In this document: positions 60,922-63,566 of the stretch, one piece after another
Layout: every line of letters begins with the position of its first letter
Position numbering within the stretch: position 1 is the stretch's first letter
Source of the DNA: Ignavibacteriota bacterium
GTDB taxonomy: Bacteria > Bacteroidota > Ignavibacteria > Tepidaquicellales > Tepidaquicellaceae
NCBI GenBank assembly: GCA_016218085.1
Contig: JACREY010000015.1
Span: 186,001 to 250,000 of the forward strand
Reading direction: 5' to 3'
DNA: 64,000 nucleotides
Notes under the pieces: model-generated
What the model saw: only the letters and a program-made list of their open reading frames with translations
Databases searched by the model: none
What the model was told of the DNA's origin: nothing
Program-made: the position numbers and the translations under genes

Positions 60922-62655
60922 ATGAAAAAAATTTTATCGGTCAGTTTTATTTTAACTTTCTTTTTTTCAACCGGATTAATATACAGCCAGGTTACTTTTA
61001 CGGACCAGGCAATCGCTCTCGGTGTGAACGACGGCGGAGCGGCGCAGGGAGTCGTCTTTCTCGACGTGAACAATGACGGTTTTCTGGATATTTTCCTTGC
61101 AAATAATAATACACAGAGCAAGCTGTGGTTAAATAACAGCGGAACTTCTTTTACGGATGTTTCAGCTTCCTGGGGACTGAACCTTATGAGTCCGACAAGA
61201 GGGACATCTGCAGCGGATTATAATAACGACGGATTCATTGATATAGTTGTCGGGAACTGGCAGACGCCGATTATGCTTTTTAAAAATACGGGTACTGCTT
61301 ATCAGGATGTTTCCTCTACTGCGGGTATAAATTTTATGAGTTACGGCGGCTCTGTTAACTGGATTGATTTTAACAAGGACGGTAAAATCGATTTTCTTTT
61401 TGCAAACGACGGAATGCCCCCAAGGTACAATTACTTTTTCAGGAACGACAACCTGACAAGCTTTACAAATATTGCTTTTACAATCGGACTTATTGACAGT
61501 TCTTCTACTCTTTGTCTTGCAGCAGCGGATTACAATAATGACGGATACCCGGATTTATTCCTCGGAACGCAGTCATACCCCGGTTCAACAACGACCGGAA
61601 TTCTATACAAAAATAACGGCAACGGAACATTTTCGGATGTTACAATGGCCTCAGGAATAATTACAACCTTTTACACCTGGGGAGCTGAATGGGGTGATTA
61701 TAATAATGACGGTTTTATGGATTTATATCTGTCAAGCACTACGGGATATAATCAGCTATTCAAAAACAACGGCAACGGAACATTTTCGGATGTATCGATT
61801 GCAGTAGGATTAGGAACCGATTACGGACAGTCTTATTCCTGCGGATGGGCTGATATTGATAATGACGGAGACCTTGATTTATACGTTGCCAAAGGGCAGA
61901 CATATGCGGATAAGATGTACAGGAATGATGATTCGATATTTACAGACATTGCAGGCACGTGCGGTATGGGAGATTTAAGGCATTCGAGTTGTGTATCGTG
62001 GGGTGATTACAATAATGACGGTTTCCCGGATTTATATCTGAACAATAACGGAACAGAAAACCGCCTTTACAAGAATTCGGGCAATTCAAACAAATGGGTA
62101 GAGTTCAAACTCATAGGAACTAACTCGAACAAATCCGCAATCGGCGCAAGGGTAAGAATTAAAACCGGAACAAAGAACCAGATACGCGAAGTGGAAGGCG
62201 GTTCGGGAGGAAAAGGAATGAATTCACTTCCGCTTGAATTCGGAATAGGGACTTCAACCGTTATAGACAGCGTGATAGTGAACTGGCCAAGCGGATTAAT
62301 ACAAAGATTTGCAAATGTAAATCCGAATACAATATACTCACTGACAGAGGGACAGCCGCTCGGAGTGAACAATTTAAATACAGGAATACCGGAAAAATAT
62401 TCTTTGAGCCAGAACTATCCGAATCCGTTTAATCCAAACACGATTATAAGATTTCAGATTAAAGATACAAGATTTGTTACATTAAAAGTATATGATATTT
62501 TAGGAAAAGAGATAGCAGTACTTGTAAATGAAAATAAGAAAGAGGGATATTATGAGACGGAATTTAGGGCTGAAAATATCCCAAGCGGTGTGTATTTTTA
62601 CACACTCAAGGCAGACAGCTACACTGAGACGAAAAAAATGTTATACATAAAATAA
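60922..62655 (+). CDS. T9SS cargo protein with FG-GAP/VCBS repeats and UnbV/ASPIC domain
   Basis: 577 residues: a signal peptide (ending GLIYSQ), then seven or so VCBS/FG-GAP repeats with calcium-loop motifs such as DVNNDGFLDIF, DYNNDGFIDIV and DYNNDGFPDLYL. These are followed by an ASPIC/UnbV domain (about 390-480: KWVEFKLIGTNSNKSAIGARV, GMNSLPLEFGIG, VNWPSGLIQRF) as in CRTAC1-like proteins, and a type A sorting domain with QNYPNPFNPNTII and PSGVYFYTLKADSYTETKKM. It is predicted to be a calcium-binding surface propeller. Confidence 0.94.
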   Translation: MKKILSVSFILTFFFSTGLIYSQVTFTDQAIALGVNDGGAAQGVVFLDVNNDGFLDIFLANNNTQSKLWLNNSGTSFTDVSASWGLNLMSPTRGTSAADYNNDGFIDIVVGNWQTPIMLFKNTGTAYQDVSSTAGINFMSYGGSVNWIDFNKDGKIDFLFANDGMPPRYNYFFRNDNLTSFTNIAFTIGLIDSSSTLCLAAADYNNDGYPDLFLGTQSYPGSTTTGILYKNNGNGTFSDVTMASGIITTFYTWGAEWGDYNNDGFMDLYLSSTTGYNQLFKNNGNGTFSDVSIAVGLGTDYGQSYSCGWADIDNDGDLDLYVAKGQTYADKMYRNDDSIFTDIAGTCGMGDLRHSSCVSWGDYNNDGFPDLYLNNNGTENRLYKNSGNSNKWVEFKLIGTNSNKSAIGARVRIKTGTKNQIREVEGGSGGKGMNSLPLEFGIGTSTVIDSVIVNWPSGLIQRFANVNPNTIYSLTEGQPLGVNNLNTGIPEKYSLSQNYPNPFNPNTIIRFQIKDTRFVTLKVYDILGKEIAVLVNENKKEGYYETEFRAENIPSGVYFYTLKADSYTETKKMLYIK

Positions 62656-62679: not shown

Positions 62680-63381
62680 ATGAAAAAAATTCTCTTTGTT
62701 CTTGCAGTATTTTTATTTATAGTTAAAGTTACAGAAGCACAGAAGCTTCCGGGATTCGATGCAGACCTCGGCAAGAAGACAGTATTCGGACAGGAAATCC
62801 GTCTGCCCTATACAGATGTATTGAGTTATTACGGATATATTAAACCGGGTTCTACCTGCGATGAAGAGCGTGGCGGAAAAAAATATTATTATCTGTATTT
62901 ATGGATTCCCTCTGCAATTCCCGAACTCGGAATAAGGATGGTATCCCCCGTTCCAAAAGGAATGAAGCCTGAAAAATCCGATTACCAGATGGATGAATAC
63001 AAAGAAAATTCAAGCGACGCGAAAAGCTATTTTGATACGTGGATTTCACTTGAAAAGTCAAATGTATATTTCAATGATTCAAGTTTTGTAGAAAACGTAA
63101 AAAATGCCACGTGGACAATGATGGCGCAGAATGATGATTCAGGCGAGCTTCCGGCACAGCCATCGGGTAAGGAATATAACTCGCTGATGAGAATATCCAG
63201 CGAGACAAGCAATCCGACAAAATCGCTTGTGAAAGGATTATACAGGATAGGATTCACTACATTCAAGACAGGTGAAGTTCAGGGAAGCTTTATCGCACAA
63301 ATTGGCGCTGTGATAAAAATCCCCGGAACAGTGATAACAAGGACTGTAGAAGGAATGAAAGTGATATTGGATTCGAAATAG
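62680..63381 (+). CDS. LipL32-family surface protein homologue
   Basis: 233 residues with a signal peptide (cleavage near VTEAQ) but no lipobox cysteine. The mature part follows Leptospira LipL32 in order: LPYTDVLSYYGYIKPGS, KKYYYLYLWIPSAIPELGIRM, SYFDTWISLEK, YNSLMRI, and LVKGLYRIGFTTFKTGEVQGSF. The acidic Asp-rich calcium loop of Leptospira LipL32 is not conserved. LipL32 is the dominant surface lipoprotein of pathogenic leptospires and its function is unclear. It starts 24 bp after the FG-GAP/UnbV gene and may share its transcript. Confidence 0.85.
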   Translation: MKKILFVLAVFLFIVKVTEAQKLPGFDADLGKKTVFGQEIRLPYTDVLSYYGYIKPGSTCDEERGGKKYYYLYLWIPSAIPELGIRMVSPVPKGMKPEKSDYQMDEYKENSSDAKSYFDTWISLEKSNVYFNDSSFVENVKNATWTMMAQNDDSGELPAQPSGKEYNSLMRISSETSNPTKSLVKGLYRIGFTTFKTGEVQGSFIAQIGAVIKIPGTVITRTVEGMKVILDSK

Positions 63382-63385
63382 ATCT

Positions 63386-63505
63386 TCGATTCATAAGATT
63401 CATAAAATTTTTAAGATTCATAAGATTAAAAGCGGAAGAGCAGACTACTTCAAATGCTATTGCCGAAATAATAGATTCATAAGATTAAAAGCGGGAAGAA
63501 AAATC
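63386..63505. repeat. Short direct repeats GATTCATAAGATT
   Basis: GATTCATAAGATT and shortened forms occur four times after the LipL32-like gene. The longer form GATTCATAAGATTAAAAGCGG recurs about 58 bp apart. Non-coding; similar micro-repeats are common in intergenic DNA of such genomes. Confidence 0.55.
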
Positions 63506-63536: not shown

Positions 63537-63566
63537 AAAACCCCGATTGAAAAACCGGGGTTTTTT
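63537..63566. terminator. Bidirectional terminator
   Basis: Perfect stem AAAACCCCG / CGGGGTTTT with a T tract on both strands, between the plus-strand LipL32-like gene and the minus-strand korB-like gene; it can serve both. Confidence 0.92.

Follow-up and report, generated by a model that had tools for sequence, protein, structure and literature searches.

A LipL32-family protein without lipobox and with a conserved predicted calcium site in Ignavibacteria

What a relative of the Leptospira protein LipL32 might do in an environmental bacterium related to Bacteroidota is the question raised by a single gene on contig JACREY010000015.1 of an Ignavibacteriota genome, of which we analyzed a stretch of 64,000 nt (hereafter the window, features in Table 1). 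A preliminary description of the window had matched five motif blocks of the translated protein with Leptospira LipL32, and both the ORF and the quoted blocks were confirmed here. A Pfam search with the 233 aa protein found the Lipl32 domain PF12103 with 239.4 bits (E 2.6e-71, cut-off 25), covering positions 2–179 of the 179 in the profile, and up to E 1 neither a T9SS tail (Por_Secre_tail, CHU_C) nor any other domain. In the PDB a sequence search matched three distinct sequences, all of them LipL32 (E about 1e-33), and a profile built from 19 rows reached the PDB LipL32 chains at about 5e-47, with the C-terminal PG motif now covered. The homology to LipL32 is real, as had been claimed. Against the NCBIfam model for the LipL32 equivalog (NF038394) the protein scored 133.3 bits, below the cut-off of 300 bits, and we therefore regard it as a relative within the family and not as the equivalog of the Leptospira protein. 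It extends a known protein family, being of a known kind in a new lineage. The genome (G000, 3.3 Mb) carries one copy. A foreign origin was considered from composition, but the GC content of the gene gave no signal (40.0%, compared to 38.3% for the window). Directly after the gene, positions 63388–63427 hold 4.4 copies of the 9-base tandem repeat GATTCATAA.

Table 1. Positions of the LipL32-family gene, its parts and adjacent features in the window.
Feature	Position	Strand	Basis
LipL32-family gene, 233 aa + stop	62680..63381	+	ORF, PF12103, PDB sequence search, profile, Foldseek, structure alignment
Signal peptide, residues 1–20, putative cleavage between TEA and Q, no lipobox	62680..62739	+	sequence and N-terminus comparison
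LipL32 domain (Pfam PF12103), residues 39–219	62794..63336	+	Pfam search
D119-T120, equivalents of LipL32 calcium ligands D132-T133	63034..63039	+	alignment; ligand identity from papers
D152-D153, equivalents of LipL32 calcium ligands D164-D165	63133..63138	+	alignment; ligand identity from papers
Y166, equivalent of LipL32 calcium ligand Y178	63175..63177	+	alignment; ligand identity from papers
577 aa protein (FG-GAP / UnbV_ASPIC, T9SS tail), 24 bases upstream of LipL32 gene	60922..62655	+	ORF, Pfam, locus comparison
Terminator-like stem between LipL32 gene and convergent downstream gene	63537..63564	. (listed on -)	terminator search

A structure model was built from the 19-row alignment (pLDDT 77, pTM 0.74) and compared with known structures. 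The best eight matches in Foldseek were all LipL32, with 'Calcium bound LipL32' at the top (E 9.8e-18, TM 0.69), and VIA-align superposed 208 residues on 2wfk_B with Z 21.4 and an rmsd of 3.5, so that the predicted fold agrees with the LipL32 crystal structure and the model places the window protein among the LipL32 jelly-rolls. Outside LipL32, VIA-align ranked a calpain C2-like domain highest, at Z 9.4. A collagenase collagen-binding domain gave Z 7.6 over 91 residues, a range (Z under 8) in which a match may reflect a mere common arrangement. Neither likeness is strong enough to assign a function. The Leptospira protein (PDB 2wfk, 2zz8, 3frl; PF12103) and the window protein share fold, motif order, the five calcium ligands and the C-terminal PG motif, with about 35% identity over the structural alignment; the window protein differs by a shorter acidic run and a shorter YNSL-GLYR stretch.

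The shorter acidic run had led the preliminary description to regard the Asp-rich calcium loop as missing. This does not hold, as in the alignment with 3frl the acidic loop has the same length in both proteins (residues 139–166 of the query, 131–158 of the chain, gapless) and only the poly-Asp run is cut down, to N-D-D. To convert positions in the 3frl chain to protein numbering we derived an offset of 20, anchored at the start of the LipL32 acidic run, which we take to be residue 161. With this offset the published LipL32 calcium ligands D132, T133, D164, D165 and Y178 (PMC8951592, PMC5566480) meet the expected letters in the chain and lie opposite D119, T120, D152, D153 and Y166 of the window protein. 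In the wider alignment each of the five residues is unchanged throughout the core (37 of 37 rows, counting the window) as well as in Leptospira. They are all found among the 36 invariant columns out of 184 compared in 36 rows, which would occur by chance with a probability of about 2e-4 if the columns were independent. Judged from these alignments, the predicted ligand set of the family is intact in the window protein, and the calcium ligands persist without the poly-Asp run.

A second, divergent group of LipL32-like proteins has a different ligand pattern. It comprises L073/L074 (1504–2178, minus strand), L075, L076, L077, L079, L081 and L082 and is carried by 7 of the 42 genomes in the order of genome G969, where two more genomes were matched via core proteins only; in the class sample it occurs only in G969 (295 genomes). 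Within the group (L074, L075, L076, L077, L079, L081) PF12103 was matched at 25–54 bits in five of five proteins tested, and L076 shares the predicted LipL32 fold with Z 16.6. Unlike the core relatives, however, none of the six divergent rows in the wider alignment keeps all five ligands, and the branches of the group in the tree are long. This sister group thus appears to have lost the calcium ligands while retaining the predicted fold. Its existence makes it conceivable that the window protein, too, keeps the fold of LipL32 but has given up calcium binding, and the reduction of the poly-Asp run to N-D-D would fit such a loss; given the contrast between 37/37 core rows with five ligands and 0/6 divergent rows with the full set, we consider this quite improbable.

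The N-terminus of the window protein reads MKKILFVLAVFLFIVKVTEA before and QKLPG after the putative cleavage point. The preliminary description had found no lipidation Cys in the signal peptide, which was borne out: the junction lies after residue 20 and the first Cys of the protein is residue 60. All core rows with a readable N-terminus (n = 36, window included) have an A-Q or S-Q junction at this place, and in 34 of them even a loose pattern found no lipobox-like match. The two loose matches are L018, where position 6 lies implausibly close to the start, and L080 with the ambiguous IVAC. The same loose pattern matched in none of the six divergent relatives. A strict lipobox count across the ORFs of the window was zero and thus offers no positive control, for which a search for the lipoprotein signal peptidase was used instead. 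By comparison, Leptospira LipL32 is described with a lipobox Cys20 (PMC8951592). Since a lipoprotein signal peptidase was found in the genome, lipidation is available to the cell, and the loose lipobox of the core relative L080 indicates that lipidation may come and go. Judged by their N-termini, these relatives seem as a rule to be exported without a lipid anchor.

The upstream neighbor of the gene carries a T9SS tail, and the adjacency to T9SS cargo had been pointed out in the preliminary description. It is true for the window and for the genus-mate G001, the only genome in which this cargo gene is conserved next to lipL32. Together with the short intergenic gap, in which no terminator-like site is listed, the conserved gene pair could suggest a T9SS-exported partner that is co-transcribed with the FG-GAP cargo protein. 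The protein itself, however, has no T9SS tail, and the linkage was not seen outside the genus. Moreover, at least 150 T9SS tails were matched in the 3.3 Mb genome (150 of 246 candidates were scored), a large secreted repertoire that makes such an adjacency unsurprising and of little meaning. We regard a T9SS partner as very improbable. Terminator-like sites were not in excess in the region, with three found compared to a shuffle mean of 2.4. Among 35 loci, which include overlapping copies from a single genome, no conserved lipL32 partner was found beyond the genus in Ignavibacteria, and in Bacteroidia shared neighbors occur only in small groups. Six Bacteroidia loci of two kinds (L016, L054, L057, L058, L060, L061) have a histidine kinase of the TPR type within a few genes upstream of lipL32, in most cases accompanied by a response regulator gene, which may reflect regulation or chance; such kinase/regulator pairs are common in Bacteroidota. 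In two related genomes the gene just before lipL32 encodes a protein of ~188 aa whose N-terminus resembles a lipobox (I-S-C-G; L060 6824–7390 and L061 6759–7325, both minus strand).

We slightly favor the reading that the window protein is a calcium-stabilized, non-lipidated periplasmic jelly-roll protein of the LipL32 family. What the analysis itself establishes is the family, the predicted fold, the kind of export signal as judged by sequence, and the conservation of the calcium ligands. The jelly-roll domain would be exported by the Sec pathway and its signal peptide cleaved by signal peptidase I, as a consequence of which the protein would not be lipidated. As neither a lipobox nor a T9SS tail is present, a periplasmic location appears most likely, with the protein either soluble or loosely held at the inner side of the outer membrane. 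As in Leptospira LipL32, one calcium ion at D119, T120, D152, D153 and Y166 would order the acidic loop, and the same ion would presumably stabilize the binding face. The job of the protein may be ligand binding or a stabilizing function in the envelope, rather than host adhesion. A periplasmic role also fits the report that LipL32 of L. interrogans is subsurface and of largely unknown function (PMC3544172).

The main rival to the periplasmic reading is a secreted or surface-held adhesin that binds matrix or polysaccharide on surfaces, with calcium tuning the binding. Such a role has been proposed for LipL32, and in Pseudoalteromonas tunicata it is favored by a knock-out of the orthologue, as the Delta-ptlL32 strain is described to be reduced in its binding to extracellular matrix (ECM) and to an alga (PMC4080168), a result that counts against a periplasmic protein, as does the lack of an independent functional clue from conserved neighbors. 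Relatives in marine Aquimarina and the weak likeness to the collagen-binding domain would also suit an adhesin, although the Z value of the latter lies in the range under 8 discussed above. On the other hand, the window protein has neither the lipid anchor nor the T9SS tail with which it might reach the surface, and besides the subsurface location a lipL32 mutant was reported to be equally adherent to ECM (PMC3544172). All in all we consider the adhesin role unlikely, and we keep to the periplasmic protein as the preferred reading.

That the family occurs outside spirochaetes, as stated in the preliminary description, is true but not new: Gardiner et al. reported LipL32 orthologues in gammaproteobacteria and four Bacteroidetes in 2014 (PMC4080168). 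PtlL32 of P. tunicata and the orthologues in Cellulophaga, Formosa and Ulvibacter, compared here by description, are likewise patchy in occurrence; in the portions of this paper available to us neither 'lipobox' nor 'signal peptide' is mentioned and the lipidation of the orthologues is not stated, and the rows of its Table 2 that were examined contain no Ignavibacteria. Open-licence PMC papers yielded none that links LipL32 with Ignavibacter or names PF12103. New here are the Ignavibacteria clade, a calcium-site form that mostly lacks lipidation in those relatives that were reached, and the divergent group that lost the calcium ligands. The family was found in 6 of 59 near genomes (own included), in 1 of 395 genomes of the phylum sample (the own genome only), in 12 of 299 genomes of the family of Aquimarina G442 and in 4 of 395 genomes of its class (G442 counted in both). 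A scan of genome contigs yielded 19 loci, among others in Ignavibacteria, Saprospiraceae, Chitinophagaceae, Vicingaceae and Aquimarina.

The six rows from Ignavibacteria group as one clade (99/98) in a maximum-likelihood tree built from 44 rows, with no sign of a recent transfer into the window, and the deeper branches have no clear order; the phylogeny proposed in the preliminary description as a check for transfer is thus answered for the recent past only. With the single Leptospira row on a long branch, long branches meeting and the tree unrooted for lipidation state, we put forward only as a rather unlikely reading that the ancestral LipL32 was a periplasmic calcium protein, not lipidated, in Bacteroidota/Ignavibacteriota, that the anchor was added later in Leptospira, that a side branch dropped calcium binding, and that the envelope role predates pathogenesis. 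If true, the long-sought function of LipL32 would be an envelope role older than pathogenesis. The suggestions in the preliminary description, of a likely free-living organism whose gene could help to identify the ancestral role, are an inference. The non-lipidated form with a predicted calcium site, present also in culturable marine Aquimarina, would make calcium and ligand role separable from lipid anchor and infection.

Travel of lipL32 on plasmids or viruses left no sign, as plasmid records gave no match (tblastn, 1e-5) and none of 33 pattern matches on viral contigs was confirmed. At a smaller scale the gene has been gained or lost between close relatives: G008 (L094, C58:16000–26000) belongs to the genus that also contains the carriers G020 and G028, and its flanking genes adjoin each other with no lipL32 in between, whereas G020 (L010) holds about 5.3 kb including lipL32 at this site. 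One Aquimarina genome (L021, G449:C39) carries three lipL32 copies, two of which start 4.3 kb apart.
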